A stretch of DNA of 23,078 bases, taken from the IMG/VR virus record IMGVR_UViG_3300033141_000942, positions 1 to 23,078 of that record; one strand, given 5' to 3'. Below, piece by piece: positions 31-18,955 of this stretch; within the stretch, counting starts at the first letter, position 1, and each line of letters begins with the position of its first letter. The DNA is from a virus. Under the pieces are notes generated by a model. It was not told the origin of the DNA, made no database searches, and saw only the letters and a program-made list of their open reading frames with translations. Made by a program: the position numbers and the translations under genes.

Positions 31-237
31 ATGTTTAGTATAATTGTAGTATTCTTCACAAAGTTCATGGTTTTATATAGGATGGCTAAGGTATTAAGAA
101 AGGGTTATAGTACTCTATGTAAAGTATATTCATCTGACATGAGAGCAACCCTTAAATCAGCCGTCGATAATCCTAATGAGACTTGGGATGATAAACTTAT
201 GTATTACATGGATAAGATATTTAAGCATAGTGTATGA
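31..237 (+). CDS. Small membrane-anchored phage protein, unknown function
   Basis: A 68-residue protein I do not recognise. Residues 1-18 are strongly hydrophobic (MFSIIVVFFTKFMVLYRM) and could be one membrane helix or an uncleaved anchor. A basic stretch follows (about 19-32), then an acidic tail with NPNETWDD at about 48-55. Short, single-helix proteins with acidic tails occur among phage lysis and membrane proteins, but nothing here identifies it as a holin or spanin. The start is supported by AGGAG at 20-24, six bases before the ATG. Its TGA stop overlaps the next ATG (ATGA), so it is probably translationally coupled to the glycosyltransferase. It is likely a real gene, because coding continues without a gap into the cassette. 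Confidence 0.65.
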   Translation: MFSIIVVFFTKFMVLYRMAKVLRKGYSTLCKVYSSDMRATLKSAVDNPNETWDDKLMYYMDKIFKHSV

Positions 238-1223
238 TAGCTTCTAACAAAATGAAGAAACTATCAGTCATCATAAGTAATAGAAATGACACAGTAATGC
301 TTGCTATAACTGTTAGGTCTTGCATTGAAGCACTTAAACCTCTAGGACTTGACAACTGTGAAATTATCATAGTTGACAACTCAGACCTTCCAATCTACAA
401 AAGTCTTAATAGCTTCATTCCACCTGGCTACATCAAAGATGGATTAGTAAAAGTATATCGTCAAGACTTCCCTTGCCTTTTCACTGCACGTGAGACGGGA
501 GCAGAGAAAGCTGAAGGTGAGTTCATTATTTGTGTAGACTCCCATATGTTAATAGGCCACAATATGTTTGTTGACCTAGTTAGTTTTATGATTAAACGAT
601 CTGATGATCCAACAATAGGATTCGCTCATGCACCTATCAACTGGGTACATCAACATGAGCGTGCTTCTAGACATGATCGGGATATGAGTGTTAATGAATT
701 AGGTGATTGGGGAACTGCTTACAACCATGAAAGAACTATCACTTGGAAAGGAATGCCTTGGATATGTCGTCGAGATTGGTTCCTTGACAAAGATAAAGGT
801 CTAAATGCTTATGGAGCATTAACTGAACATAAAGTAAGTTGGGGTGGAGGCGACATGCATATAGGTATCAAACCTTGGCTTCTTGGTTTTAAGAACTGGG
901 CAGTCCCTACAAATCCCGCTATTCACATAGGCCCTTTTCCAAAGGAAAGTAATAAAGTATCCAGTGATAAATACCGCCTTTATGCTGCAAGTGGAAGCTT
1001 CCCTCACACCTTTGGATTCCTTGTAAGTTGCTACGTTCTTGGTGGTGAAGCTATGATGAATCGCAATAAGGCAGCAATAACTAACCGATTCGGCAAATAC
1101 ATAGATGTTAACAAGTGGTGGGGCAAGGCTATTGAACTTGGCCAAAGTGAACGTGATTGGCTTAGTAAAAGACAAATAATGACCTTTGAAGAACTACTTA
1201 AAGCAAAACCTTGGAATAACTAA
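234..1223 (+). CDS. GT-A glycosyltransferase, polypeptide GalNAc-transferase (GT27)-like
   Basis: A 329-residue nucleotide-sugar glycosyltransferase of GT-A fold, expected to act in the cytoplasm. Seen: the opening strand VIISNRND (12-19), IIIVDNSD (44-51), TARETGAEKAEGEF leading into the metal motif D102-S-H104, the acceptor-loop motif WGGGD (203-207), and a distal histidine H231 six residues after a proline (PTNPAIH). Polypeptide GalNAc-transferases share the same order: R..GA..A.G, DSH, WGGEN and PCSRVGH, with the last His binding metal. The usual Glu of WGGE is Gly here. It overlaps the upstream stop (ATGA) and the downstream start (TAATG). No Shine-Dalgarno is visible, so starts at 234 or at the internal ATG 252 (MKKLSV) are both possible. 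Known: the fold transfers sugars from UDP donors. Inferred: the acceptor, possibly a virion protein. A generic GT2 enzyme is the alternative. Confidence 0.82.
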   Translation: MIASNKMKKLSVIISNRNDTVMLAITVRSCIEALKPLGLDNCEIIIVDNSDLPIYKSLNSFIPPGYIKDGLVKVYRQDFPCLFTARETGAEKAEGEFIICVDSHMLIGHNMFVDLVSFMIKRSDDPTIGFAHAPINWVHQHERASRHDRDMSVNELGDWGTAYNHERTITWKGMPWICRRDWFLDKDKGLNAYGALTEHKVSWGGGDMHIGIKPWLLGFKNWAVPTNPAIHIGPFPKESNKVSSDKYRLYAASGSFPHTFGFLVSCYVLGGEAMMNRNKAAITNRFGKYIDVNKWWGKAIELGQSERDWLSKRQIMTFEELLKAKPWNN

Positions 1224-1696
1224 TGAATACTGTCGAAGATTTATATAAAGAATGGCCCTTTCGTATACGTTACTTATGTAGAGAATGTTGGAATAGGATA
1301 GAAGAATACATAAATAAATACAAGATTACTTCAGTCCTTGAATTTGGCTCTGGGTTGTCAACTATTTTATTCAACAATATGGGACTTGATGTAGTATCAT
1401 ATGAAACTGATCCTGTATATCTTAGACTTATAAAGAGATACAACCTTGCTAATGTAGAGTTTCGTCTTTGGGACAATGTCACGGCTAATGTAGAAGGCCA
1501 CTTTGGAATATCTTTGGTAGATGGAATTTTACCTAGGGTAAATCAATTATACTATGTACAGAAACATTCACGTTATATAGTTATAGATGACTTCAATGAT
1601 GGTAATTCAAGTGTAGGTTTAGTTCCTATGCTTAAAGGTTACACACGGTTAGATGATAAATCAACAAGACTGGCAATATTTAGGATGATTAAATAA
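1223..1696 (+). CDS. Class I SAM-dependent methyltransferase-like protein
   Basis: A 157-residue protein with a Rossmann-type SAM-binding start: VLEFGSGLST (38-47, motif I) and, about 14 residues later, a strand ending in YETDP (60-64) with an acidic residue (E61) placed to hold the ribose hydroxyls. A later strand, IVIDDFND (about 118-125), resembles the acidic motif of small O-methyltransferases. It is short for a methyltransferase (usually 200 or more residues), so it is either a minimal form or binds SAM without catalysis. TAATG overlaps on both sides place it in one translational unit with two glycosyltransferases. That context suggests it modifies a sugar or glycoprotein made by its neighbours. 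The acceptor cannot be read from the sequence. Confidence 0.68.
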   Translation: MNTVEDLYKEWPFRIRYLCRECWNRIEEYINKYKITSVLEFGSGLSTILFNNMGLDVVSYETDPVYLRLIKRYNLANVEFRLWDNVTANVEGHFGISLVDGILPRVNQLYYVQKHSRYIVIDDFNDGNSSVGLVPMLKGYTRLDDKSTRLAIFRMIK

Positions 1697-3348
1697 TGGT
1701 ACCTCAAATTACAGTCTCTATTGTATCTTGGTTATTAGAGGGTAGATTAATAAAGACCCTATCTGAAATACCTAAGTCAACTGATCTTCCTTTAAATCTT
1801 TGTCTTCAAGTCCAGGGATGTGATCAAATATCTAAAGATAGAGCTAAGGAAATTGTAGATGTTGCTTCTTCTAACTTTGTAAACTCCGATGTATTTTTTA
1901 CTGCAGGGAACAGATATATAGCAAAGACTAGAGCCAGTATTTTTAAGAGGTCAGCTAGGACACCTTTTATTTTTATGACAGACAATGATATGGTCTTTCA
2001 AGAACATACTATAGATATACTATATAACTTTCTATCTAATAAATCTAATAGTGAATATGGACTGGTTGATACAATATACAATAAACGAAAGTATCACAGA
2101 ACTGTAGATGGAACGAAAGTTATCTGTACTCCCATAACCTTTGGACATTTAAAATTTGTAGATGTTAATTTAATAGGTGGTGGCTCAATGCTTATAAGGT
2201 CTGAGGTAGCTACTATTCCTAATATAATAGACACAAGATATGATTTAGGGACTTGGGATTTTGACCTTTGCATGAATGTGAGAAAAGCTGGATGGAAGAT
2301 AGCTTCATTAAGTGATGGAAATTATGTAGCTTTAAATGATCATTCTTATAGAACAGAAGAATACAAAAAAGGAAGAGTCCCTCTTGGACTTAGATCTTTT
2401 GGAGCCAGATTATTTGAAAGTAAATGGGGATTTTCTTCTGAGTATTATCCAGAGAGCCCAAAGATAGTAAAAAGAAAAACTCCAATAAACACTGATTCTT
2501 TTATTATATCTAGAGCAATCTATACTTCCATTGGAGAAGATTTGGGAGTAGGTATTCTAAGTGAGCGTCGTCTAGAATTAATGCAGCGGTATTTCATAGG
2601 TAGTTTACGTAATCAGACTGATCCAAACTTTACTTTATATCTTTTTACAGGCCCATCAGATAATGAAGCAACTTCCAGGATTAAGTCACTTGATTATGGC
2701 AATCTTGATGTGAAATTTATCTCCATTAATGATGATTTATCAAAGTGGAAAAAGTCTGTAGATGAATCAAGAAATTGGGGAAGGGAAATAGATGAAGGAA
2801 GTCCAGAGGCTCTTGTACGTAATTATGGACATCCTAAAGCTACAATCATGGCTCGTGTTGATATAGATGATTGGGTAGCACCTGGTTGGATTGCACACAT
2901 GAAACATATGGCAATCGCTAAACCAGAATCTCACTTTCTCATTAATTATCAAGTTGTTGGTCAGGGTCCTGATGGTCGCCTTTATAAATTCTTTGCTCCC
3001 CACAATAGAGGTAGATCAAGTCCATTTCTTGCTTTGGTACAGAAGGAAGAACCACGGATTAGTCCTTATGAAGATGTGCATTTAAACATGGGAAAACTAT
3101 TTGCCTATGTATATAACATACAACCTTCCTATGTCTTCATGGTAGTTCATGAAGGAAATAGGAGTAACAGAGTTTACAAGTTAGACAGATACTTTGAGGA
3201 CATCGAGGAAAAATTAGAATTAAGGAATCAAGCATTAGTGAAGACGAAAATAGAGCCAATAAAGGTAGTAAAGCAGATACCTAAATTGATCTCAATAAAA
3301 AAACCTATCCGAGGATCTAATTGGCGAGCAAGAATGGTTAATGGATAA
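1696..3348 (+). CDS. Two-domain glycosyltransferase (GT2 plus rhamnosyltransferase-like)
   Basis: A 550-residue protein with two apparent glycosyltransferase domains. Domain 1 (about 1-240) has a GT-A start (ITVSIVSW), the metal motif T-D95-to-D98 region (MTDNDMVF), GGGSMLIRSE (161-170), GTWDFDLCMNVRKAGWK (185-201), which fits the 'ED.DL..R....G' acceptor motif, and a late His (NDH, 214-216). Domain 2 (about 267-480) begins SRAIYTSIGEDLG, continues RYFIGSLRNQTDPNFTLYLFTG, and has ARVDIDDW (387-394). This resembles the putative rhamnosyltransferase family (PF11316). The C-terminus is Lys-rich and probably disordered. It begins with a TAATG overlap. Its TAA shares its last A with the first repeated dyad element, so the cassette ends there. 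Likely role: adding two sugars in succession to a phage or host acceptor. Domain 2 is the less certain assignment. Confidence 0.78.
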   Translation: MVPQITVSIVSWLLEGRLIKTLSEIPKSTDLPLNLCLQVQGCDQISKDRAKEIVDVASSNFVNSDVFFTAGNRYIAKTRASIFKRSARTPFIFMTDNDMVFQEHTIDILYNFLSNKSNSEYGLVDTIYNKRKYHRTVDGTKVICTPITFGHLKFVDVNLIGGGSMLIRSEVATIPNIIDTRYDLGTWDFDLCMNVRKAGWKIASLSDGNYVALNDHSYRTEEYKKGRVPLGLRSFGARLFESKWGFSSEYYPESPKIVKRKTPINTDSFIISRAIYTSIGEDLGVGILSERRLELMQRYFIGSLRNQTDPNFTLYLFTGPSDNEATSRIKSLDYGNLDVKFISINDDLSKWKKSVDESRNWGREIDEGSPEALVRNYGHPKATIMARVDIDDWVAPGWIAHMKHMAIAKPESHFLINYQVVGQGPDGRLYKFFAPHNRGRSSPFLALVQKEEPRISPYEDVHLNMGKLFAYVYNIQPSYVFMVVHEGNRSNRVYKLDRYFEDIEEKLELRNQALVKTKIEPIKVVKQIPKLISIKKPIRGSNWRARMVNG

Positions 3349-3384: not shown

Positions 3385-5466
3385 ATGAAAAGACTAATTA
3401 TATTACTATTCATATCATTGTCACTATTTGCTACCAATGCAAATGCAGATTTCTTTTCAGATGTGATAGTAACTTCGCCTGATGGTATCTGGACGGACTC
3501 TCGTGCATATGCAACTTTAAATGATGCAATAACTGCAGTAGGCGCTAATGATCGTGAAATAGTAATTGTCAATGAACAGGCAGTTACTACATTAACAGTA
3601 CCTTCTAATGTAAGATTGAAGTTCCTTCGGGACGGGTCTATTAACAACTCAGGACAACTAACTATTAATACAAAGAACATATCTGCAGATAACAGACAAA
3701 TCTTCACTGGTACTGGGGACATAGACTTTGCTAATGGTTCGGTACTTCGATCTGCTTGGTTTTCACAGGCCAGTACAGCTATCAATACAACAACTGATGA
3801 CATCATTACTTTAATAATATCCAAACAGACAAGTGTCTGGCATTCTTGCACTGTTGGCAATAATGTAATCTTAAAGTGGGAATCCCCTAATAACATACTA
3901 ACTGTACGTTCTGGAGTAGTAGTCTCCAACATTAAGAATATAGAAGCCGGAAACTATCAACTCTTTGGTGGGCCTGGAGACTTTGACTTCCTTGACGGGA
4001 CTAGACTTAAACTCGATTGGTTTGTCAGACTCCGTTCTGTGGTTACCTGGATTGAGAGTGAAAAAGTTACTTTGGAGATCTCAGATAATAATACAGTAAG
4101 TTATGATAATACTATCCCTAGTAATCTATCACTTAGGATGTTTAATGGTGGATCTCTTAGTATTGATATAGGTAGAACAATTACTTCTAATGGTTCATTA
4201 GAGATCAATCCAGGAGCTATCATTGATGGTGCAGGGACACTTACAATCAATGGGCCTTTTGAGGCTGGCTTATCACAATGTTTTGGGACGAGTATTGATA
4301 TAGATTTTGGGGATGGTGTAAACAATGCTTACTCCCAATGGTTTGGCACAAGAGTTGACGCTACAACTGACTTTACAATTCCTATCCAACGTGCCCTGGA
4401 CTCTAAAACTCAAAAACTAACAGTAAAGCTACTAGGATTAAGTTATAAAACAACTGATACAATAACAGTTTCTGGAAGTTATAAAGTATTAGATTTGGAA
4501 GGTGGTAGTATTACTTCATACGTTACAGATAAAGCGGCTGTTGAAATAAAACCTGCTGCTGGAATTACACGTTACAGTGGAGTTAAAAATGGAAGTTTAT
4601 TAGGTGATGAGGCTACTGGTAATGCAACAATAGGTTTAAAAATTAGTGGTGCTGCATGGTTTGCACAAACAGAAAACCTTATCATTAAATATTTTGGTCT
4701 TGGTGCTGCTGGTGGATATGGATTCTATATAATTGGTGCAGGTGCTACTAATACTCCATATTTCGGCAACCATAAAAACATTAATGCAGATCAAAATTAC
4801 ATAGGTTTTTATGCAGCGGGTCAAGATATAGCGTTTGTATTAACAACAAATCACTTTGAAGGTTGCTACGCTTCCACTAATGATTCTGATGGATTCCTAT
4901 TTAGGTATTGTACTGGAAATACTCTCACAAACATAATAGCAGAAAGTAATGTAGGGGCTGGTATTCATCTTGATTATACACATGGTATGTATGCTAATGG
5001 AGGTTTTATTGAGGGTAATACTCCTAATTTATTGGTAGAAAACATAGACTCAACAAAATTACCTAATATTTTATTATTCTCTGGCTATCAAGCAGTAGCC
5101 ACAGCAGCTACCTATGATAATCGACCAGATGTGGATATTTCTGGTAGTTTTAATATTAGAAAAATGTCTACACCAATTATAACAATAAGTAGTGGAGATA
5201 TAATTACATTAAAAAATGCACCAAATAAAGTAATTATAGCAGAGCGTTATGGAGCATATGCAGAGGTCTTGTTATCATGGGATGGTGCTGTAACTTGGAC
5301 AGTAGAATATTTAGTAAAAGGTGGAATTAATACAGCATGGTGGACAGTCACTAAAGATACAGCAACTAGTTTTAATATATATTATGATGCTGGTAGCAGT
5401 TCATTTAAACTTCAATCCACAAGAAACGCAATACTATCAATTCAGCAATTAGGCGCAGGAAGTTAG
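3385..5466 (+). CDS. Tailspike-like right-handed beta-helix protein with signal peptide
   Basis: A 693-residue protein. Residues 1-21 form a clear Sec signal peptide (MKRLI, hydrophobic core, ANA before DFF). Residues 71-126, 155-213 and 244-320 are three diverged copies of one module, each running 'NVRL.F..G', a strand pair, 'F.G.GDIDF', and ending in a Trp-Phe. After the third comes WFGTRVDATTDFTIPIQRALDS, the classic opening of phage tailspike and pectate-lyase-like helices. Beta-helix rungs follow to about residue 560 (TGLKISG, GFYIIGAG, IGFYAAG, GAGIHLDY), then a beta-rich C-terminal domain. Role by family: binding or cutting host surface polysaccharide. No catalytic residues can be assigned. 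GGAG sits before the ATG, just after dyad copy 1. The export signal is odd for a virion protein assembled in the cytoplasm. A secreted depolymerase is the alternative. Confidence 0.8.
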   Translation: MKRLIILLFISLSLFATNANADFFSDVIVTSPDGIWTDSRAYATLNDAITAVGANDREIVIVNEQAVTTLTVPSNVRLKFLRDGSINNSGQLTINTKNISADNRQIFTGTGDIDFANGSVLRSAWFSQASTAINTTTDDIITLIISKQTSVWHSCTVGNNVILKWESPNNILTVRSGVVVSNIKNIEAGNYQLFGGPGDFDFLDGTRLKLDWFVRLRSVVTWIESEKVTLEISDNNTVSYDNTIPSNLSLRMFNGGSLSIDIGRTITSNGSLEINPGAIIDGAGTLTINGPFEAGLSQCFGTSIDIDFGDGVNNAYSQWFGTRVDATTDFTIPIQRALDSKTQKLTVKLLGLSYKTTDTITVSGSYKVLDLEGGSITSYVTDKAAVEIKPAAGITRYSGVKNGSLLGDEATGNATIGLKISGAAWFAQTENLIIKYFGLGAAGGYGFYIIGAGATNTPYFGNHKNINADQNYIGFYAAGQDIAFVLTTNHFEGCYASTNDSDGFLFRYCTGNTLTNIIAESNVGAGIHLDYTHGMYANGGFIEGNTPNLLVENIDSTKLPNILLFSGYQAVATAATYDNRPDVDISGSFNIRKMSTPIITISSGDIITLKNAPNKVIIAERYGAYAEVLLSWDGAVTWTVEYLVKGGINTAWWTVTKDTATSFNIYYDAGSSSFKLQSTRNAILSIQQLGAGS
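3595..4344 (+). repeat. Three diverged protein modules ending in WF inside the tailspike-like gene
   Basis: Coding repeats of about 56, 59 and 77 residues (protein positions 71-126, 155-213, 244-320). Shared landmarks are NVRL/NVIL/NLSL near the start, a 'GTGDIDF' or 'GPGDFDF' or 'SIDIDF' strand, and a closing WF. The similarity is at protein level; the DNA has diverged, so this is an old duplication. Confidence 0.6.
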
Positions 5467-5534: not shown

Positions 5535-7079
5535 GTGGATAAGGAAACCCAACAAATACAATCTCTATGCTCAATCAGTACTCGAATGACTGCTCAAACA
5601 TTCTTCCCTGAGCGATTCTATGTACCTTTCGCTGACAATATACATGGAAAGATATTTAATCTCATAGATGGCCCTGATCAAAAAGTTGCCATTGCAGCTC
5701 CTCGTGGTTGGGGAAAGACAAGTATAGTTGCACTTGCACTTATGGCTAGGTACATATTATATCATCACACTGGATTCATCTGTTACATAAATAAGTCCCA
5801 TGATGCTGCATCACTTCAGACCGAAAACTTACGACGTGAACTTGTTAGCAATAGAATGATCAGACACTTCTTCGGTGATTTTAAATCAAGGGATGTAAAG
5901 AAAAATGAGTTTGAAGAAGTCTTCAGCAAAAAAGCTTGGGTTGCTTATGATACTCTAGTCTGGCCTCGTGGGGCTGGCCAACAAGTTCGTGGTGTTCTAT
6001 TTAAGAATGATCGACCAGGCCTGATCGTAATAGATGACTTAGAAGACCCTGAAAGAATCAAGAATGATGAGATACGTAAAGGGTGGTATGAGTGGCTATA
6101 TGCTGATGTTATTAAAGCATTACCTAGAGTAGGTGACATGGCTAAGAAATGTAAAATAGTCTACATTGACACACTTAAGCATGAGGACTCTGTCCTTCAA
6201 AAACTACTCACTTCTAATGAATGGAAGTCAATTCGTCTTGAGGCCTGTGATGATGACTTTCATTCTACTGCTCCTGCCTTTATGTCAGATGAAGACATAA
6301 TGAAGGAGTGGGAGGAACATCAAGCAAGTGGTCAAACTGATGTGTTCTTTCGTGAGTTACGTAATCTTCCGATTTCAACTAAGGATTCAGCATTTCAGAC
6401 CCAGTACTTTCATTATTACAACTTACCATCTGACAAGACTGTTGGTGAACTTGACCTTAAAAAGATCGACGTTGACATTCAGCAAGATAGAAACATCGAA
6501 ACTGTAGTAATTCTTGACCCTGCTAAGACTGTCAAGATTCACTCTGCTGAAAGTGCTATTATAGGAATAGGGATTGATCTTACATCTGCTAAAATCTACA
6601 TTAGGGATATAGTCTCAAAGAAGATGTATCCAGATGAAATCTACGATGAACTCTTTGGTATGGGTATACGATTAGGTGCAAAAGTATTAGGGATTGAGGA
6701 GACTTCCCTAAATGAGTTTATCAGACAACCTATCAAAAATGAGATGTTTAGACGTGGAACGTTCTTTGAACTTATCTGGTTAAAAGCCAGAGGTGGGATG
6801 AAGAAGGAGCTTCGTATTAAGGAACTTGTACCTTATTATCGAGGTAGTTATATCTATCACAATGCTTCATGTGTTAATGTTAAGAAGTTAGAACAACAAC
6901 TTCTAATGTTTCCTCGTTCTGCTCTTTGGGATATAATGGATGCTGAGGCTTACATCATTGAGATGCTTGAGTTAGGCGAACGATACTTTAGTCCAAATGA
7001 TAATCCAGATGATATTGAATCTGAGTATAAAGAGCTTGAATATGATGAGCCTGTTGAAAACTGGAGGGTTGCAGTATGA
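5535..7079 (+). CDS. terL: Terminase large subunit (packaging ATPase and nuclease)
   Basis: A 514-residue DNA-packaging motor that uses ATP to drive the genome into the prohead and cuts concatemers. The ATPase domain has Walker A APRGWGKT (55-62), Walker B LIVIDDLED (163-171, D167/D168, E170) and a coupling motif VYIDTLKHEDS (209-219). The nuclease domain has acidic residues in ILDPAKT (D328), GIEET (E388/E389) and WDIMDAEAY (D466/D469), the RNase H-like three-cluster arrangement. Length is normal for the family. It starts with GTG behind AAGGAG. Its TGA overlaps the next ATG (ATGA). Unusually, the gene before it is a tailspike-like gene and no small terminase subunit is seen next to it. Identification is secure; the packaging type (cos, pac or direct repeats) cannot be told from this. 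Confidence 0.96.
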   Translation: MDKETQQIQSLCSISTRMTAQTFFPERFYVPFADNIHGKIFNLIDGPDQKVAIAAPRGWGKTSIVALALMARYILYHHTGFICYINKSHDAASLQTENLRRELVSNRMIRHFFGDFKSRDVKKNEFEEVFSKKAWVAYDTLVWPRGAGQQVRGVLFKNDRPGLIVIDDLEDPERIKNDEIRKGWYEWLYADVIKALPRVGDMAKKCKIVYIDTLKHEDSVLQKLLTSNEWKSIRLEACDDDFHSTAPAFMSDEDIMKEWEEHQASGQTDVFFRELRNLPISTKDSAFQTQYFHYYNLPSDKTVGELDLKKIDVDIQQDRNIETVVILDPAKTVKIHSAESAIIGIGIDLTSAKIYIRDIVSKKMYPDEIYDELFGMGIRLGAKVLGIEETSLNEFIRQPIKNEMFRRGTFFELIWLKARGGMKKELRIKELVPYYRGSYIYHNASCVNVKKLEQQLLMFPRSALWDIMDAEAYIIEMLELGERYFSPNDNPDDIESEYKELEYDEPVENWRVAV

Positions 7080-9161: not shown

Positions 9162-9881
9162 ATGAAGCGATTACTTTTAATTATACTTTCAATCTTCTTC
9201 CTTGCAAGCATTGTCTGTGCCAAAGGTGTCTATTACTATGCTGGGGAGACGGTAACGGGTGCTGTTGGCTGGTCATGCCCTGGCACAAACAGTGATATTC
9301 TTTGCGATGATTTCGATGGTGGTGCTGATCTTGTTTGGTCAGAAACCGAAACTAATGGCACAATAACCTTTCAAAATGATCGGATGGAGATTATTGCAAC
9401 AGGGGCAGCATGTTGGGCATCTACCGATTATGGTAGTGCTATTACAACTCACTATACCAGTTTCAAATTTACTTTAGTTTCTGAAAGTCTTGGTAGTGGT
9501 GGTGATGATTTTATTGCCCATGCTTCTGTAATAAATGGTGACGGCACTCCCGCCTGGTCTTGTCGAATAATAGAGGATGCTTCAAATCAACACGCAATGC
9601 AATTTAGGCATCTTGATGATGCTTGTAGTGGCTGGATTTCGACAACTTCGGCTTACGATTTGGCATTAAGCACAGAATATACAATAAAAATAGCATATAC
9701 CCACGCCTCAGTGTCTTACTATGTTTATGGTAACAGTGATAATGGATTAATAGGCACATCTAATGATGTATGTGACCGTGATCCTCAATATTGGTTGTTT
9801 GGAGAAGATAGTAATGATGCAGCAATAACCTTTTATATAGATGGGTTTCAAACAGATGATGACACTATGCCGACTTATTAA
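9162..9881 (+). CDS. Secreted lectin-like (concanavalin A-type) protein
   Basis: A 239-residue protein with a strong signal peptide (MKRLLLIILSIFFLASIVCA, cut before KGV). The Cys there is preceded by Val and does not make a good lipobox. The mature part begins with a short linker, then a jelly-roll pattern: ILCDDFDGGADLVW, MEIIATGAAC, TSFKFTLVSESLGSGGDDF, a Trp-rich middle, YTIKIAYTH and a closing ITFYIDGFQTDDD. This is the strand order of LamG/concanavalin A-like sugar-binding domains. Six cysteines in the mature part fit export to an oxidising compartment. AAGGTGA sits five bases before the ATG. It overlaps the next gene by 26 bases. Likely role: binding glycans outside the cytoplasm, either on the virion or released. 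No catalytic glutamates of a glucanase stand out. Confidence 0.68.
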   Translation: MKRLLLIILSIFFLASIVCAKGVYYYAGETVTGAVGWSCPGTNSDILCDDFDGGADLVWSETETNGTITFQNDRMEIIATGAACWASTDYGSAITTHYTSFKFTLVSESLGSGGDDFIAHASVINGDGTPAWSCRIIEDASNQHAMQFRHLDDACSGWISTTSAYDLALSTEYTIKIAYTHASVSYYVYGNSDNGLIGTSNDVCDRDPQYWLFGEDSNDAAITFYIDGFQTDDDTMPTY

Positions 9882-11616
9882 ATTCTTATTTGTATTTCTT
9901 TTATTTACTACTCCTGCGTGGGGAGCTGATTTTACAGTCTGTAACGCCGGCTGTGACGAAACAACCATTCAGGCGGTGTTTAATAACAATGACTTAGCTC
10001 CTGGTGATGTAGTAGAAGTACGGGCCGATACCCCTGGAGGAAGCAAAACGTATTCTGAAATGGTAGAGCCTGGGTCAAACGATGTGGGAGATGCTGGGAG
10101 TCAACTTACCCTTCAAGCTCGTTCAGGAGATACGATCACAATTGATGGAGGAAATTCCAGAGCACACGGAATAGTCCTCAGTGGCAGATCATACTTCACT
10201 TTAGACGGATTTCATTTTGATAACTGTACGGCCCAGGTGGTGTACGTTGCGACTGCCGCCACAGGTGTTATTCTCCAAAACTTAACCATAGTCCAGGACT
10301 TGAATGCTGCTTCTGATACTTGTGATGGAATTACGTTTATTGAGCAGACTAATAGTGTTATTGATAACTGCGATATTAGGCACAGTGCCGAGGTCAACTG
10401 CGTATATGCAGCCGATAGCATCAAGGTCACTGGAGGCTCTGGTAATACGGTTAAATATTGTTACCTCGAACATAAGAGCACTAACACAGACCGCCACAAT
10501 GACGGTATTCAGATGTGGAATGATACCGATTTCACTGTCTATGGCAATGAGATCAATCACGCAATCAGTGGTGGCAGAATGCAGGGAATCTATATGGAGG
10601 GAGTAGGTGTTGGCAATTATGGAACATGGTTATGCTATAATAATCTGTTATACGGTGCAACATGGCAATCTTCCGCTATTAGATTACGCCCCAAAGATGC
10701 TACTGCCATTGTCAGATGTTACAACAATACCTCTATTGTTATTGATTCATCAGGACAAGCCGCTTTCATGGAAGGGTCTGATGGTGGTGCCGATAATACA
10801 ACAATGTATGCGTATAACAATGTATTTATTCACTTGAATGCTGGAAATATTTCTCAGCCTGTAACGTATGCCGATGGAGTAAATCCTGGAAATGTAGATA
10901 ATAATTGTTACTATAGGGCAGGACACTCAGCTACAACTTATGGTGGTAGTGATATAAATACAGACCCTTCTTTAGACGCCAGTTACTATCCCGATGATTC
11001 AGGTGATCCTGTGGTAGATACAGGAAAAGATTTGAGTGGAACCTTTACAATCGACAAAGATCAAGTATCCCGCCCTCAAAGTACAGATTTTGATATGGGT
11101 TGCTATGAATATACTGGTACAGCAGCCCCTACAGGCACACTTGTTGTTGCAGGGGGAATTGTTGAGAGCGACGTTGTAACTGGTGCAAAAACACTTGTCC
11201 TTACCTTAGATGGCACGACATGGGATGCAGATATAGGCACTACTGGGGCTGAACAAACTGCTTTAATAGCAGGGATAACATCGAACAAAGCAGAGGCAGG
11301 AGGATGGAATACAATAGTCAGGGATGATTATGGAGTTGGATGGACTGACACTGGAGCCGAAGTAGTAAGAAATAGCGATACGGTATTAACAATTACGCTC
11401 CCTGCATTTGCAGCCTACGAAATTACTGCATCGGAAACCATAACTGTTACCATAGCTTCAACCTGTGTAGCAAGTGCAACAGAGATAGTGGCAGACCCAC
11501 CATTTATTATCTCGGTTGACACCTTGCCTGATGTAACTGGTGTAGGGTGGTATTTTACAGCAGGGGGACAAGCAGCAACTAAAACCACGGGTGGATTAGC
11601 AATAACATCACCATAA
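9856..11616 (+). CDS. Signal-peptide-bearing beta-helix protein with C-terminal Ig-like domain
   Basis: About 586 residues from the ATG at 9856; ATGs at 9841 and 9859 are also possible and none has a good ribosome binding site, so coupling to the upstream gene is likely. The signal peptide is LIKFLFVFLLFTTPAWG before ADF. The body has right-handed beta-helix rungs (ITIDGGNSRAHGIVLSG, YFTLDGFHFDNCT, GVILQNLTI, NSVIDNCDIRH, NTVKYCYLEH, DGIQMWNDTDFTVYGNEI, AIVRCYNNTSIV, TMYAYNNVFI). The helix ends in FDMGCYEY, the 'DIGAYEY'-type close seen in bacterial secreted beta-helix proteins. An Ig-like domain follows (GAKTLVLTLDGTTWDADI, SDTVLTITLPAFAAYEITASETITVTI). It looks like a bacterial surface-polysaccharide protein fused to a phage-type beta domain. 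Role: probably polysaccharide binding or cleavage; no active site was identified. Confidence 0.74.
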   Translation: MMTLCRLIKFLFVFLLFTTPAWGADFTVCNAGCDETTIQAVFNNNDLAPGDVVEVRADTPGGSKTYSEMVEPGSNDVGDAGSQLTLQARSGDTITIDGGNSRAHGIVLSGRSYFTLDGFHFDNCTAQVVYVATAATGVILQNLTIVQDLNAASDTCDGITFIEQTNSVIDNCDIRHSAEVNCVYAADSIKVTGGSGNTVKYCYLEHKSTNTDRHNDGIQMWNDTDFTVYGNEINHAISGGRMQGIYMEGVGVGNYGTWLCYNNLLYGATWQSSAIRLRPKDATAIVRCYNNTSIVIDSSGQAAFMEGSDGGADNTTMYAYNNVFIHLNAGNISQPVTYADGVNPGNVDNNCYYRAGHSATTYGGSDINTDPSLDASYYPDDSGDPVVDTGKDLSGTFTIDKDQVSRPQSTDFDMGCYEYTGTAAPTGTLVVAGGIVESDVVTGAKTLVLTLDGTTWDADIGTTGAEQTALIAGITSNKAEAGGWNTIVRDDYGVGWTDTGAEVVRNSDTVLTITLPAFAAYEITASETITVTIASTCVASATEIVADPPFIISVDTLPDVTGVGWYFTAGGQAATKTTGGLAITSP

Positions 11617-11723: not shown

Positions 11724-12407
11724 ATGAATACAATAGTATCAAAGACTAAAGAAGCAAAAGATCTGATAAGAGAATCTGTTGCAAAGTGGGAAGATGAAAT
11801 AGGCATATTCTGTTCCTTTGGTAAAGATAGCATGGTAGCACTTCATCTTGCTCTTCAAATAAATCCAGATATTAAAGTAATATCTGTGATGACTAGATTC
11901 AAGCCAAAGGAAACATTTGAGTACTTAGCTAGGATACAGAGAGATTGGAAGATAAACTTAGAAGTATTCACTTCTCATGAAAAGGTTCCAGATGATCTTC
12001 CTTTGACCGACCCTGATGAGTGTTGTAGGATTAACAAAGAGGAACCTACAAAGGAAGCCTTGCATGACTTTGCAGCTTGGATTACTGGACTTCGTAGAAC
12101 GGAAGGTAGAACAAGAACTGACTTCAGATATGTTGAGGAAACTTCCCGTGAGTACTTAGATGAGAAAGGGATTATAACAAAGATCAATCCAATTCTTGAT
12201 TGGTATGAAGTTGATATTTGGAAGTATATAGCTATTCACCAAATCCCAGTTCATCCTTGGTATGCCCAAGGATATAGAAGTCTTGGCTGTGAGCCTTGTT
12301 CACATCTTGTAAATGATAATGAAACAGAACGTGCAGGTAGATGGCTTGATACAAGTAAATGTGGTGGTGAGTGTGGAATACATACTATGGCTAAAAGGAA
12401 TATGTAA
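11724..12407 (+). CDS. cysH: CysH-type adenylyl-sulfate / phosphoadenylyl-sulfate reductase
   Basis: A 227-residue enzyme of assimilatory sulfate reduction that reduces APS or PAPS to sulfite in the cytoplasm. Seen: the PP-loop variant SFGKDS (31-36), ECCRINKEEP (99-108) with the Cys pair C100-C101, ITGLRRTEGRTRTDF (120-134), NPILDWYEVDIWKYI (155-169), GCEPC (188-192), ERAGRW (202-207) and the catalytic tail ECGIH (216-220, C217). The CC plus CxxC arrangement is the [4Fe-4S] ligand set of APS-type reductases, so APS is the likelier substrate. All key residues are present and the length is near normal, so it should be active. It is preceded by dyad copy 3 and AGAGGA and overlaps the next gene by TAATG. 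Known: cysH is a recurrent phage auxiliary metabolic gene. DndC, a relative used in DNA phosphorothioation, lacks the ECG(I/L)H tail and fits less well. Confidence 0.92.
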   Translation: MNTIVSKTKEAKDLIRESVAKWEDEIGIFCSFGKDSMVALHLALQINPDIKVISVMTRFKPKETFEYLARIQRDWKINLEVFTSHEKVPDDLPLTDPDECCRINKEEPTKEALHDFAAWITGLRRTEGRTRTDFRYVEETSREYLDEKGIITKINPILDWYEVDIWKYIAIHQIPVHPWYAQGYRSLGCEPCSHLVNDNETERAGRWLDTSKCGGECGIHTMAKRNM

Positions 12408-13583: not shown

Positions 13584-15530
13584 ATGCCTTACATTGTAAC
13601 AGGTGAACCAAATAGTTGGAGAGACGAGGATTATAGGGAGAAGAACTTTGACTATAAATATCCTTATGATCTTGACTTAAGACCAGACTCAGACTTCCAT
13701 AAAAAACTACGTGGAAAGATCTGGGAAAGGGCCAGCACTGCCAGAAATGAGATAAGTAAGAGATTCGATTCTTGGAATAAGATAGACTGGACATTAACTA
13801 CCTACATTCCATTGAAAGATAAGGAAAGTAAACTTAAGAAAACTGACTCAACAAAGCCAGTTTCTATAGTATTCCCTTATACCTATTCCAACCTTGAATC
13901 ATTATTAACTTACTTATCCCTAGCATTTTTCCAAGACCCCATGTTTCAATATGAAGGTGTGGAAGATGATGATACAATAGGTGCTATGTTAATGGAACTT
14001 ATTATAAGCCTTCATTGTACCAAGACTAAAGTACCTCTTGCAATCCACACTGTTCTAAGAGACGCACTTAGTTATGGAGTAGGTATTGGAATACCTAGCT
14101 GGGTAACTAAGTATGGAAAGAGGCCTATCAAATCCTCAGTGTCCAGAATATCCGATCTTGGAAGAACATCTGAGAGTTACGTAGACTGGGTTGATGACTT
14201 GTTATTTGAAGGCAATTCACTCTTCAATGTAGACCCTTACATGTGGTTACCTGATCCTTCTGTCTCTACTAACAATATCCAAGATGGTGAATTCTTTGGG
14301 TGGGTTGAGAAGGACAACTATATGAATCTTCTTAGTGAGGAAGGCCAGTCTCACTCTGGTTTATTCAATGTTAAGTATTTGGAAGGGAAGAAGAATAAAC
14401 TATCAGCGTTGTCTAAGAATCAATCTGAAAGACAAACTAAATTTGGTGGCTCATCTGAATCACACAGATCAATGAGTAGTACTTCAAGACCTATTGATTT
14501 AATAAGAATGTATGTGAATCTAATCCCTAAGGAATGGAAATTGTCTGATAGTGAATATCCAGAAAAGTGGTTCTTTACCCTTGCATCTGATGATGTTATA
14601 GTTGGATGCGAAAAGGCTGACCATAGTCATGGAATGTATCCTGCTGCAGTTGCTAGTCCTGAAGCTGATGGTTATTCAATTACGCCAGTTAGTAGAATTG
14701 AAATTATGTATGGTTTGCAAGGTGTGCTTGACTTCATGTTCAACTCACATGTAACTAATGTTCGAAAAGCTATCAATGACATGTTGATAGTTGATCCATT
14801 CCTTGTAAATATAAAGGACCTTGAAGATCCAAGCCCAGGTAAATTAATAAGGTTACGAAGACCTGCGTGGGGAAGAGGAGTTGACAAGGTTGTACAGCAA
14901 CTTCAAGTAAATGATATAACAAGGGCTAACATTTCTGACTCTGCTTACATCACACAGTGGATGGATAGAATAAGTGGTGCTGATCAATCTATGCAAGGTG
15001 CACTTCGCCAGGGAGGCCCTGAACGATTGACTAAAGGTGAATTCCAAGGTACACGTGGAAGTGCTATTTCAAGACTCCAACATATTGCTATGATGGTAGG
15101 TATGCAATTCTTTCAGGATATAGGTACTATGTTTGCAGTTCACACACAACAGTACATGACCCAAGATTCCTATATCCGTGTAGTTGGCAGGCAAGAAGAA
15201 CAATTAAAGAAGATGTTTGGAAAGGAACGTGTTAAAGTATCTCCATATGAACTGGCTGTTAACTATGACTTAATTGTAAGGGACGGTTCAATTCCTGGTA
15301 CTAACATTGAGGCAATGACTCAGATGTGGCAGGTTATAGCAACAACACCTGAACTCCATCAAGAGTTTGATACATTTAGAATGTTCATGTATATAGCGAA
15401 ACAACTTGGAGCTAAGAATCTTGACGACTTCAGACGTAATGTGAATAGGATTCAACCAACTACAATGTCTGATGAGGAAGTTGCGAATCAAGTTGAGAAG
15501 GGTAACTTAGTTCCGACTGGAGAGATATAA
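13584..15530 (+). CDS. Portal protein (head-tail connector)
   Basis: A 648-residue protein in the usual portal place, before the scaffold and capsid genes. It should form the dodecameric ring at the special vertex through which DNA is packaged and ejected. Seen: an alpha-helical N-terminal region (KKLRGKIWERASTARNEISKRFDSW, split by charged turns), a clip/stem region including YGLQGVLDFMFNSHVTNVRKAIND, RPAWGRGVDKVVQQL, SDSAYITQWMDRISGADQSMQGAL, and the Thr/Gly-rich GTRGSAISRLQHIAMMVGMQF helix typical of the crown and tunnel area of short-tailed phage portals. Length fits podovirus portals. A GAGGAGA site precedes the ATG by about seven bases. The stop overlaps the next start (TAATG). There is no nucleotide-binding motif, as expected. 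Identification rests on pattern and position. Confidence 0.86.
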   Translation: MPYIVTGEPNSWRDEDYREKNFDYKYPYDLDLRPDSDFHKKLRGKIWERASTARNEISKRFDSWNKIDWTLTTYIPLKDKESKLKKTDSTKPVSIVFPYTYSNLESLLTYLSLAFFQDPMFQYEGVEDDDTIGAMLMELIISLHCTKTKVPLAIHTVLRDALSYGVGIGIPSWVTKYGKRPIKSSVSRISDLGRTSESYVDWVDDLLFEGNSLFNVDPYMWLPDPSVSTNNIQDGEFFGWVEKDNYMNLLSEEGQSHSGLFNVKYLEGKKNKLSALSKNQSERQTKFGGSSESHRSMSSTSRPIDLIRMYVNLIPKEWKLSDSEYPEKWFFTLASDDVIVGCEKADHSHGMYPAAVASPEADGYSITPVSRIEIMYGLQGVLDFMFNSHVTNVRKAINDMLIVDPFLVNIKDLEDPSPGKLIRLRRPAWGRGVDKVVQQLQVNDITRANISDSAYITQWMDRISGADQSMQGALRQGGPERLTKGEFQGTRGSAISRLQHIAMMVGMQFFQDIGTMFAVHTQQYMTQDSYIRVVGRQEEQLKKMFGKERVKVSPYELAVNYDLIVRDGSIPGTNIEAMTQMWQVIATTPELHQEFDTFRMFMYIAKQLGAKNLDDFRRNVNRIQPTTMSDEEVANQVEKGNLVPTGEI

Positions 15531-16274: not shown

Positions 16275-16298
16275 GACCGTTTAATATTTAAACTAACT
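16274..16298 (+). promoter_or_regulatory. Repeated 25-bp dyad element, copy 4
   Basis: Left half AGACCGTTTAA, spacer TAT, right half TTAAACTAACT. The inner 6+6 bp pair perfectly. The outer left half carries CC where copies 1, 2, 3 and 5 have TT. It begins on the last A of the upstream TAA and ends 11 bases before the scaffold ATG. Confidence 0.72.
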
Positions 16299-16299
16299 T

Positions 16300-16304
16300 G
16301 GAGG
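16300..16304 (+). promoter_or_regulatory. Ribosome binding site fixing the scaffold start at 16310
   Basis: GGAGG lies five bases before ATG 16310. A longer reading from a TTG at 16298 would translate this site and the end of the dyad element, so it is rejected. Confidence 0.85.
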
Positions 16305-16309
16305 TTAGC

Positions 16310-17158
16310 ATGGACGAACATCTTAAACAGATTCAAAAGGACGTAGATGATATGAATAAGACTCTTGAAGGTCAGGTAGTTACTACTGCTCCTGGGACTG
16401 AGGTACCTAAAACTCAGGCTCCAGGAACTAATGCTCCAGGAACAGATACACCTGGCACTGATGCTCCTAAAACGGATGCCCCTAAAACAGAAGTACCATC
16501 TACAGAAGTACCTACAACTGAAGCTCCTGAGGAGAATTTTGAGGATAGACTTACGAAGGAAAATGAGGCTTTACGTAAACGAATAGAGGAAATGTCAGGA
16601 GGGCACACTAAGGCACCTGGAACGTCAGCTCCTAAAACTGCTGCACCAGGTACTGAACCGCCTATTAGTGAGTATGATTTTCTTGGTAATAAAGACTTGG
16701 ATGAACTGACAAGGGATCCTAAAGAGTTTAATAAACTACTCAATGAGATCTATGCCAAAGCTGTAAAGGATACCAAGGGAACTATGACTGAGGGAGTTCT
16801 TCGATCTATACCTGATATAGTGAAAACTAATGTACTTGCAGTTACTGAATTGAAGAAAGCCAGTGATCAATTCTACAAAGATAATGAGGATCTAGCTCCA
16901 TTTAAGAAAGTTGTAGGTATTGTATTTGAAGAACTAGCTGCCTCAAGTCCAGATAAAAAGTATAGTGAAATTCTTAATGAAGTTGCAACTGAGGCACGTA
17001 ATAGATTAGAACTCCACAGGAAAACAATTAAGGATGATAAGAACAAACATCCAAATTTGCCTAATAAAAGAAATCAACAAAGGCAAACACAAACTAAACC
17101 CAATCTCACTGGAATAGAAAAAGAGATTGATGCAATGAACGAAACACTTAATCAATAA
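16310..17158 (+). CDS. Capsid scaffold protein with mucin-like APxT repeats
   Basis: A 282-residue acidic protein just upstream of the capsid gene, likely guiding capsid assembly. Residues 1-22 form a charged helix (LKQIQKDVDDMNKTLEG). Residues 27-76 are ten tandem pentapeptides of the form (A/V/T)P-x-T-(D/E/N/Q), the last one imperfect. About 77-96 is a coiled coil (EDRLTKENEALRKRIEEM). Residues 102-116 add three more pentapeptides. About 125-240 is helical (FLGNKDLDELTRDPKEF and onward). A basic, Gln/Asn-rich linker (about 240-264) leads to the last helix, LTGIEKEIDAMNETLNQ (266-282), typical of scaffold C-termini. That last helix resembles the first one (8 of 15 identical). The repeats are unusual for a scaffold, which is normally removed from the mature head. 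If this is instead a retained head protein, the repeats could be exposed on the surface. Confidence 0.76.
   Translation: MDEHLKQIQKDVDDMNKTLEGQVVTTAPGTEVPKTQAPGTNAPGTDTPGTDAPKTDAPKTEVPSTEVPTTEAPEENFEDRLTKENEALRKRIEEMSGGHTKAPGTSAPKTAAPGTEPPISEYDFLGNKDLDELTRDPKEFNKLLNEIYAKAVKDTKGTMTEGVLRSIPDIVKTNVLAVTELKKASDQFYKDNEDLAPFKKVVGIVFEELAASSPDKKYSEILNEVATEARNRLELHRKTIKDDKNKHPNLPNKRNQQRQTQTKPNLTGIEKEIDAMNETLNQ
16388..16537 (+). repeat. Ten tandem APxT-type pentapeptide codon repeats
   Basis: Fifteen-base units coding for (A/V/T)P(G/K/S/T)T(D/E/N/Q), ten in a row with the last unit imperfect (APEEN). Codon choice varies between units (gct/gca/gcc, cct/cca), so the array is old or selected at protein level. 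Every Thr has Pro three residues downstream in the next unit. Confidence 0.85.
16613..16657 (+). repeat. Second block of three APxT pentapeptide repeats
   Basis: Three more units (APGTS, APKTA, APGTE), separated from the first array by a coiled-coil segment of about 25 residues in the same protein. Confidence 0.8.
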
Positions 17159-17172
17159 CGGAGGTATAACTA

Positions 17173-17598
17173 ATGTCTTTAGAAGATAGAGGAGCACAAC
17201 ACGACAAAGTTCCTGTTGACAAGTATCATGATCCTAATGCGGATTATGCTATGACTACCAGGGACTATGTAATGCGTCCTTCAGCAGATGGGGATTCAGG
17301 TGCTATTACTTTAACATTGCCACCTGTTGCTGAGGCGAAAGGTAGATTTTATTCTATCATAGTCCGCAATGCGGATGCTGTTAATACTGTTACTATCCAA
17401 GATCAAGATGACAGTGAATGTTGGATTGGTGATGTAGTACTTAACGGTAAGTGTGATCGAGCACTTTTTTACAGTGACGGTCTTGCTTGGCATCCCTTTG
17501 CAAATCCTGGTGAGTGGCCTGGAGTGAGTACAACTGTTCCACCTGGAACAACTCCTACTCCTACTACCCTAGCGCCTACTACATCAGCACCACAATAA
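17173..17598 (+). CDS. Small beta-rich head protein with Pro/Thr-rich tail
   Basis: A 141-residue protein between scaffold and capsid genes, the usual place for a head decoration protein. Residues about 40-110 form a compact beta domain (GAITLTLPPVAEAKGRFYSIIVRNADAVNTVTI, ECWIGDVVLNGKCDRALFYSDGLAWHPFA) of the kind seen in phage spike, fibre and decoration proteins. Residues 119-141 are a low-complexity tail of Pro, Thr, Ser and Ala (TTVPPG, TPTPTTLAPTTSAP), related in style to the APxT repeats of the preceding gene. GGAGG precedes the ATG by about eight bases. Likely role: binding the capsid outside, with the tail exposed. The tail would be a good O-glycosylation or adhesion segment; that is inference. 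Confidence 0.66.
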   Translation: MSLEDRGAQHDKVPVDKYHDPNADYAMTTRDYVMRPSADGDSGAITLTLPPVAEAKGRFYSIIVRNADAVNTVTIQDQDDSECWIGDVVLNGKCDRALFYSDGLAWHPFANPGEWPGVSTTVPPGTTPTPTTLAPTTSAPQ

Positions 17599-17650: not shown

Positions 17651-18955
17651 ATGTTTTTAGGGATGAGAGGAACTGGTGATTGGGTTACAGGTCAAAGACC
17701 CATGAACTGGAGACAGCAAATATTGAAACTGTATCCAAATGGTATGGCTCCACTTACTGCAATCTTAAGTATGTTGAGCTCTGAGAAAGTAGATGATCCA
17801 CAGTTTCATTGGTGGACTCAGACAATGAGTTCTGTTAGTGGAGCAGTTGCTGGTATCTATACCGTTGCTGATCTGTCAGTTGCTTATACAGTTCCTGGAG
17901 CAGCTGGGAATTCAGTCTTTATTCAAACAACAGATACAAATGTCTTTAACCGTGTCAGGCAAGGCCATGAAATTCTACTTCGTGATGCTAGTGACTATCG
18001 AGTTGATGTAGTCGGAAAAGTCACTGAGGTTCATCGTGGTGCTGTTTCGGAAGTCTATGCAGTTAGACTTCTTGAAGCTGATGATAACTCACCTGACCAT
18101 AATCTTACCAACTGTGACACATTTAGAATCATCGGTAACATTAACCCTGAGGGTGGCGAGATGCCAGATGCCATTGCTCTAAACCCTGTGAAGGTTTACA
18201 ACCTTACTCAGATATTCAGAACCCCACTATCCATTACTCGAACTGCTCGAAAGACTAAGCTTCGTACTCCTGATGATTATCAGAAGGCTAAGTCCGAAGC
18301 TCTTGAAATGCACTCGTGGGAAATGGAACTTGCGTATCTCTGGGGAATTATGTCTGAGAATATCGGAGATAATGGTAAGCCTGAACGTACCACTAGAGGT
18401 CTCATCAACTTCATCCGCCAGTACGCAGCAGCTAATTGTGATGACTATACTTTGAACACTACATATGCAGGTCAGACTTGGGCAGCTGGTGGTGAAGTAT
18501 GGTTCAAGAATATGCTTGAGCAAATCTTTCGTTATGGTGCAGATGAGAAATTAGCACTTGTCGGTTCTGGTGCCTTACTAGGCATTGATGCTTTGGCAAT
18601 GACTGGTGGTCAGATTAACCTTCAACCTGCCCAGAAAACCTACGGTATGGATATCCGTAAGTGGATTACTCCTTTTGGGACTATCAACATGAAGACCCAC
18701 CCACTTTTCAGTTATGATGTTACCACTCGTCATATGATGGTTATTCTGGAGCCTAAGGAAATAGGAAATAGGTTCATCGACGATACTGCGTTCTATGGCG
18801 AATCTTCTTCGAAGTCTCATCCTGAGGGATATGGGCAAAGGAGAATTGATGGTACTAATGAGGAGTATTTGACTGAATCTGGTCTTGAATTTGGTCTGCC
18901 TCAAAAGTGTGCTGTACTTAATGGAGTTGGTCTGCCTAATGGCTTAACGCCATAA
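17651..18955 (+). CDS. Major capsid protein, SU10/DUF5309-like (HK97 fold)
   Basis: A 434-residue capsid subunit that builds the icosahedral or elongated head. Seen: N-terminal MNWRQQILKLYPNGMAPLTAILSML (18-42), a beta segment NRVRQGHEILLRDASDYRVDVVGKVTEV (100-127), and the family's clearest phrase NLTQIFRTPLSITRTARKTKLR (184-205), followed by a long helix KAKSEALEMHSWEMELAYLWG (212-232) and NGKPERTTRGLINFIRQ. This matches the SU10 major head protein family of short-tailed phages with elongated heads, and the length is in its range. GGAGG precedes the start and dyad copy 5 lies just upstream, fitting strong late expression. G+C is higher here than in the sugar-transferase genes (27 of 60 in 17941-18000 by hand count), as is common for highly expressed genes. 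Confidence 0.88.
   Translation: MFLGMRGTGDWVTGQRPMNWRQQILKLYPNGMAPLTAILSMLSSEKVDDPQFHWWTQTMSSVSGAVAGIYTVADLSVAYTVPGAAGNSVFIQTTDTNVFNRVRQGHEILLRDASDYRVDVVGKVTEVHRGAVSEVYAVRLLEADDNSPDHNLTNCDTFRIIGNINPEGGEMPDAIALNPVKVYNLTQIFRTPLSITRTARKTKLRTPDDYQKAKSEALEMHSWEMELAYLWGIMSENIGDNGKPERTTRGLINFIRQYAAANCDDYTLNTTYAGQTWAAGGEVWFKNMLEQIFRYGADEKLALVGSGALLGIDALAMTGGQINLQPAQKTYGMDIRKWITPFGTINMKTHPLFSYDVTTRHMMVILEPKEIGNRFIDDTAFYGESSSKSHPEGYGQRRIDGTNEEYLTESGLEFGLPQKCAVLNGVGLPNGLTP

Follow-up and report, generated by a model that had tools for sequence, protein, structure and literature searches.

A phage glycosyltransferase resembling polypeptide GalNAc-transferases and a mucin-like head-module protein as its predicted acceptor

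Polypeptide GalNAc-transferases start mucin sugar chains in humans. Within the GT-A enzymes, a change from DxD to DxH has been reported for GT27 and GT60, both of which are protein O-glycosyltransferases; the C-terminal His is a core feature of GT-A enzymes, and the Asp of the xED motif acts as the base in most inverting members (Taujale et al. 2020, eLife, PMC7185993). GalNAc-T1 and many of the isoenzymes favor Pro at the +3 position by means of a pocket, e.g., in TSAP of Muc5AC and Muc1 (PMC10901373). Phage virion glycosylation is already known from mycobacteriophages: Che8, Corndog, and Myrna have their own capsid and tail proteins glycosylated by phage-encoded glycosyltransferases, according to Freeman et al. 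2023 as cited in PMC12363180. In open-licence full texts, we found no mucin-like tail tied to mycobacteriophage virion glycosylation, nor did the same kind of source yield a phage enzyme with DxH, a structural tie of such an enzyme to GT27, or its pairing with a mucin-like tail.

The window, i.e., the whole 23,078-nucleotide stretch analyzed here (IMG/VR record IMGVR_UViG_3300033141_000942), is a fragment of a tailed phage and encodes a glycosyltransferase that we name GT27L (Table 1). From its sequence, the conservation of its motifs, its predicted fold, its gene context, and the co-occurrence of the enzyme with a Thr/Pro-rich tail on another protein, we infer with moderate confidence that GT27L is a GalNAc-transferase-like protein O-glycosyltransferase acting on the tail threonines of g141, a protein of its own phage; the activity, the acceptor, the donor sugar, the stereochemistry, and the presence of a glycan on virions are all predictions from that evidence.

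Table 1. Positions of the features discussed in the text, numbered from the first nucleotide of the window
Feature	Coordinates	Strand	Evidence or remark
GT27L, GT27-like glycosyltransferase gene	234..1223	+	ORF, ATG start, 329 aa
D102-S-H104 codons, predicted metal ligands, DxH replacing DxD	537..545	+	Invariant in the family; aligns with D224-S-H226 of GalNAc-T2
W203-GGG-D207 codons, xED-type motif	840..854	+	Aligns with WGGEN of GalNAc-T2
H231 codon, predicted C-terminal metal His	924..926	+	Invariant; aligns with H359 of GalNAc-T2
157-aa protein resembling a methyltransferase by eye (LEFGSGLST), without a family match	1223..1696	+	Adjoins GT27L, variable sugar cassette
Second glycosyltransferase, DxD-type GT2 plus rhamnosyltransferase-like domain	1696..3348	+	PF11316, E 8.5e-7; PF00535, E 6e-4
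Terminase large subunit	5535..7079	+	phrog_38, E 1e-58; synteny
Portal	13584-15530		
286-aa protein preceding g141, putative scaffold	16298..17158	+	T-x-x-P repeats at 16382-16528 and 16607-16663
g141, 141-aa head-module protein upstream of the major capsid gene	17173..17598	+	Predicted acceptor
g141 mucin-like tail STTVPPGTTPTPTTLAPTTSAPQ, predicted O-glycosylation sites	17527..17595	+	Pro/Thr 16/25, window maximum
Major capsid protein, SU10_MCP family, head-module marker	17651..18955	+	PF17236, E 1.7e-34; phrog_1328

The initial annotation of the open reading frame at 234-1223 had pointed out D102-S-H104, WGGGD at residues 203 to 207, and H231, and all of these motifs are real (in the numbering used here, TARETGAEKAEGEF begins at residue 84). 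The pattern also exceeds chance: D102, H104, WGGGD, and H231 are invariant in a 31-sequence alignment, with the exception of one DGH. The 31 phage homologs are 47 to 71% identical to the window protein (30 found in IMG/VR have 49 to 71% alignment identity), and PF00535 (GT2 superfamily) was matched by 31/31 of the homologs; for GT27L itself, the Pfam scan gave an E value of 7e-11 and 42.7 bits against a curated cutoff of 23.3. Two further observations held in part. P225 and H231 are indeed six residues apart, but the spacing had been read as a sign of GT27 and is generic: the xED-to-His distance is 24 residues in GT27L, in GalNAc-T2, and in an ordinary DxD-type GT2 of the related locus L052, and Pro-x5-His was rejected as evidence for GT27 on this account. 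Likewise, the change of Glu to Gly within WGGE was seen correctly, but the adjacent change of Asn to Asp (WGGEN to WGGGD) was missed. The latter places an acid at the xED position of GT27L, and D207 may be the catalytic base. Because the C-terminal His and the xED-to-His spacing are generic to GT-A enzymes, DxH is the informative sign in GT27L.

The AlphaFold model of GT27L, computed with the 31-row alignment, reached a pLDDT of 91.5 and a pTM of 0.91. Structural superposition had been suggested as a check on the proposed GT27 link, and the best matches are GalNAc-transferases rather than an unrelated GT2 clade. The first 47 PDB chains matched in Foldseek are GalNAc-transferases, and the best 29 PDB entries in VIA-align are polypeptide GalNAc-transferases without exception (29/29; Z 23.7 to 26.4), with alignments that cover about 270 to 285 of 323 residues at 15 to 20% identity. 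The next families are a Leptospira glycosyltransferase (Z 19.2 over 185 residues) and RmlT (19.1), with further matches to chondroitin polymerase (18.3), B4GALNT1 (17.8), and TarP (17.6); the best GalNAc-transferases lead the next family by ∼7 Z units. The rank of the top match was rejected as sole evidence, since a control fold, the N-terminal DxD-type GT2 domain of the neighboring gene at 1696-3348, also places GalNAc-transferases nominally first (19.3), tied with chondroitin polymerase (18.6), B4GALNT1 (18.3), and WrtF (18.1). Because the control shows no such gap, the ∼7-unit gap is what constitutes the structural evidence for GT27L, and part of it may come from the longer C-terminal part of GT27L.

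Sequence profiles by themselves do not decide for GT27. An hhalign comparison of GT27L with GalNAc-T2, whose sequence was checked against the PDB, pairs DSH with DSH, WGGGD with WGGEN, and H231 with H359 (P 57%, E 1e-4), and D102, H104, and H231 are predicted to lie at the metal site on the basis of alignment and conservation. Against PDB profiles, GT27L matches TarP (E 6e-8), chondroitin synthase/polymerase (7e-7), and GalNAc-T9 (5e-6), mostly with its N-terminal half; TarP and chondroitin polymerase slightly outscore GT27 on that half only. In a profile comparison, the second check suggested, GT27 thus reaches this E value of 5e-6 with other GT2 families scoring similarly, and phmmer gives GALNT7 an E value of 0.001. 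The proposed link to the GT27 architecture holds for the fold and for the aligned DxH and C-terminal His and fails for two GT27 features that GT27L lacks, namely WGGEN, which reads WGGGD, and the C-terminal ricin-type lectin domain; the protein ends at residue 329, and the Pfam scan of GT27L found no ricin domain. As regards GT60, Pfam matches up to an E value of 1 give GT27L only PF00535, and no GT60 structure is among the matches listed. GT27L, which lacks both of these features, should not be filed as GT27.

In a wider sampling of phages, every homologous frame that was read has DxH and the C-terminal His (DSH 79, DGH 1, DAH 1, with some contigs counted twice). The main clade carries WGGGD, a sister clade combines DSH with WGGAE, and a divergent clade combines DSH or DAH with WGGLI or WGVL. 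DxH and the C-terminal His are the catalytic features common to all GT27L groups, including gp2 of the cultured phage Tunturi_4. Tandem paralogs with DSH and WGGGD are present in L055, L073, L075, and L077. Second DSH-WGGGD copies that directly adjoin GT27L (L055:2774-3892, L073:7003-8145, L075:6900-7826, and one in L197) are possibly second priming or extending enzymes. At L085:1511-3277, a divergent GT27L shares one long frame with a methyltransferase-like stretch at the C-terminus. Neither the phage profile nor a GT27 profile found cellular relatives when 84,980 genomes of bacteria and archaea were scanned, and the GT27-profile scan of viral contigs gave no match; since such scans work from short exact peptide patterns, remote relatives can escape them.

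GT27L occupies the same region, as a single copy or a tandem pair, in 19/19 related records tested, all of which had been retrieved with GT27L itself. In these records it lies mostly 1 to 7 kb upstream of the terminase gene, often upstream of a spike gene, and behind it comes a cassette that varies in its content of GT2, GT-B, methyltransferase, dehydratase/epimerase-like, and radical-SAM-GT2 genes. Across these records GT27L is thus core and its sugar-gene neighbors vary, as a conserved first step with variable extension would predict. Such a constant first enzyme with variable followers would be expected if the acceptor were constant and the outer glycan variable. Relatives of the 157-aa protein of the window also directly follow GT27L in L070, L072, L076, and L081, and the second glycosyltransferase of the window is a candidate elongating enzyme. 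In the cassettes of two other loci (L050:7587-10466 and L068:4046-6064), B12-binding and radical SAM domains are fused to GT2, the former fusion with an additional rhamnosyltransferase-like domain. Elsewhere in the window, positions 3385-5466 and 9841-11616 encode beta-helix or spike-like proteins, the first of which differs between relatives, and positions 11724-12407 encode a phosphoadenylyl-sulfate reductase-like protein (NF002537 above its cutoff; PF01507, E 2e-42), likely an auxiliary metabolic gene.

Homologs of the predicted acceptor, g141, occur in some 80 viral contigs or more, and g141 matches no Pfam or PHROG family; its profile matches in the PDB are short and were judged spurious. 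When the window was scanned for Pro/Thr-rich stretches, there were two outliers, g141 and the putative scaffold, both in the head module. The initial annotation had not picked up these mucin-like tracts, and the mucin-like tails are the most telling evidence. Across 46 distinct g141 tails, Thr accounts for 27% and Pro for 17% of residues, 171 instances of Thr with Pro at +3 were counted, compared to 69 in within-tail shuffles (z 15.9), and Pro at +1 of Thr is depleted. The window tail contains TSAP. The T-x-x-P excess may be due in part to repeat expansion. Because the codons of the tails and of the putative-scaffold repeats are mixed, the Thr/Pro tracts are not DNA microsatellites. Among phages with an acidic-type enzyme (WGGGD or WGGAE), homologs of the g141 core have tails that differ in sequence and are always Thr/Pro-rich. 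The putative-scaffold repeats share the T-x-x-P pattern and largely track the tails across phages; in some phages (e.g., L182), repeats and enzyme do not go together. The putative scaffold is a possible second acceptor. Thr/Pro tails can alternatively be plain flexible linkers. Some tail-less phages (L097, L108, and L318) encode a second, longer g141-like protein in which an unrelated C-terminal domain replaces the mucin-like tail.

To relate tail and enzyme, contigs were retrieved independently with the g141 core instead of the enzyme, which yields tail-bearing and tail-less relatives alike, and were scored for GT27L by family profile and for the extent of sequence upstream of the terminase gene. 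A tail and an acidic-type enzyme were found together in 16 contigs of the first set (14 without duplicate assemblies), and G011 and G065 are concordant too. Both are absent from nine contigs (G039, G043, G046, G047, G055, G057, G061, G062, and G042), where enzyme absence required at least 8 kb upstream of the terminase gene and G042 was included on the assumption of circular permutation. One contig, G019, lacks the tail and has GT27L, in the form of the divergent WGGLI enzyme, and the fragment G030 (L080) is alike. Five contigs with a tail and no enzyme (G036, G051, G053, G054, and G056) were rejected as exceptions: they stop 0 to 4 kb upstream of the terminase gene or have no terminase gene and, being truncated where GT27L would lie, are uninformative. 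Truncation likewise kept the tail-less contigs G041, G048, G049, G052, G060, G063, and G064 out of the count. For related phages such as these, Fisher's test on 14/0 versus 0/10 gives a p value of 5e-7; scoring the divergent enzyme as present raises it to 8e-6.

Phage GT2 enzymes often modify host surface polymers. GT27L might likewise alter lipopolysaccharide, capsule, teichoic acid, or an S-layer glycan, blocking superinfection or changing receptors in the manner of TarP and Gtr, and the tails would then be unrelated linkers. TarP, a teichoic-acid enzyme, is in fact the best PDB profile match of GT27L, but that match is confined to the N-terminal GT-A half, and the structure prefers GalNAc-transferases over TarP by ∼9 Z units (26.4 versus 17.6). 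The gene context is also compatible with such a role, as dehydratase/epimerase-like sugar-nucleotide genes adjoin GT27L in some phages and GT27L lies upstream of the tail-spike and terminase genes; however, no GtrA/GtrB-like membrane partner was found among the window ORFs scanned, and the pairing of GT27L with the g141 tail is left unexplained. We regard host-polymer modification as unlikely.

Somewhat less probable again is that tail and enzyme are merely co-inherited within phage sub-lineages without a functional link. Both are common in one phage group, and phylogenetically independent contrasts are few, five on the best tree of the g141 core and capsid (from which G061 and G062 are excluded) and two on its well-supported branches. 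On the same tree, however, tail-less phages fall on several separate branches, the tail changes at least eight times and the enzyme five times, and the contrasts tested are concordant. GT27L and g141 are moreover ∼16 kb apart in the window, and when g141 relatives without a tail were specifically sought, two more informative contigs emerged (G061 and G062), both enzyme-less. As the phages are related and only two to five contrasts are independent, the co-occurrence is suggestive, not conclusive.

If GT27L does glycosylate g141, it would do so as a metal-dependent GT-A enzyme, with D102, H104, and H231 binding metal and nucleotide-sugar. It would put one sugar on threonines of the Thr/Pro-rich tail, and perhaps also on those of the putative scaffold, and this first sugar would then be extended or decorated by the products of the variable neighboring genes (glycosyltransferases, methyltransferases, and sugar-nucleotide enzymes). 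The outcome would be particles bearing phage-specific mucin-like glycans. With D207 (Glu in the WGGAE clade) as catalytic base, GT27L would be inverting, unlike the retaining GT27 enzymes; every tail-bearing phage that has the gene keeps an acid at xED and the divergent tail-less clade has lost it, which suggests an inverting reaction. That GT27L is instead a true retaining GT27-type enzyme transferring alpha-GalNAc from UDP-GalNAc would suit the fold, DxH, the C-terminal His, and mucin-like predicted acceptors with Pro at +3, but is the most doubtful of the alternatives, given WGGGD or WGGAE in place of WGGEN, KGMPWICRR in the region of the A-G-G-L-F loop of GT27, and no UDP-GalNAc synthesis gene identified among nearby epimerase-family genes, whose best models are dTDP-glucose dehydratase and all fall below the cutoffs. 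More tentatively than the action of GT27L on g141, we propose a phage-run form of mucin-type O-glycosylation, composed of a GalNAc-transferase-related initiator with an acid at xED (possibly inverting), a Thr/Pro-rich head-module tail, and a variable extending cassette.

If this proposal is true, mucin-type protein O-glycosylation, understood as modification of Thr in Pro-rich tails by a DxH enzyme, extends to bacteriophages, and a prokaryotic-virus counterpart of mucin O-glycosylation would have its enzyme and acceptor within one small genome. It would also offer a simple soluble system for relating retaining GT27 to inverting GT-A enzymes, and the glycosyltransferase that these phages conserve would gain a role in particle shielding, mucus or biofilm adhesion, or antigenic variation. 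The proposal names a specific and directly testable pair, the enzyme GT27L and the peptide GVSTTVPPGTTPTPTTLAPTTSAPQ.

Compared with described systems, the Che8 glycosyltransferases gp108 to gp110 were considered as close relatives of GT27L and rejected, as their sequences lack the DSH...WGGGD pattern. TarP (GT2) shares the N-terminal GT-A half and is a weaker structural match (Z 17.6), and DSH and the association with a mucin-like tail point elsewhere. The GT60 polypeptide/Skp1 GlcNAc-transferases share DxH and protein hydroxyl acceptors (PMC7185993), the acceptor being predicted in the case of GT27L. Among cultured phages, the acidobacterial Tunturiibacter phage Tunturi_4 encodes gp2 (XOB77330.1; L087:1567-2565), which has DxH (as DNH) and the C-terminal His like GT27L, lies between the terminase and portal genes, and is 24% identical to L080 over 82% of the latter; gp2 has GEE rather than GGD, is very divergent, and is annotated just as a glycosyltransferase, and no g141 homolog was found in the Tunturi_4 genome. 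Relative to GT27 (human GalNAc-T2 and T12; Toxoplasma GalNAc-T3), the phage protein is short (329 aa), has no ricin lectin domain, and carries WGGGD or WGGAE rather than WGGEN. It shares with GT27 a GT-A fold over the full catalytic domain, DSH, the WGG loop, a C-terminal metal His at equal spacing, and Thr/Pro-rich acceptors, predicted here, with Pro at +3.
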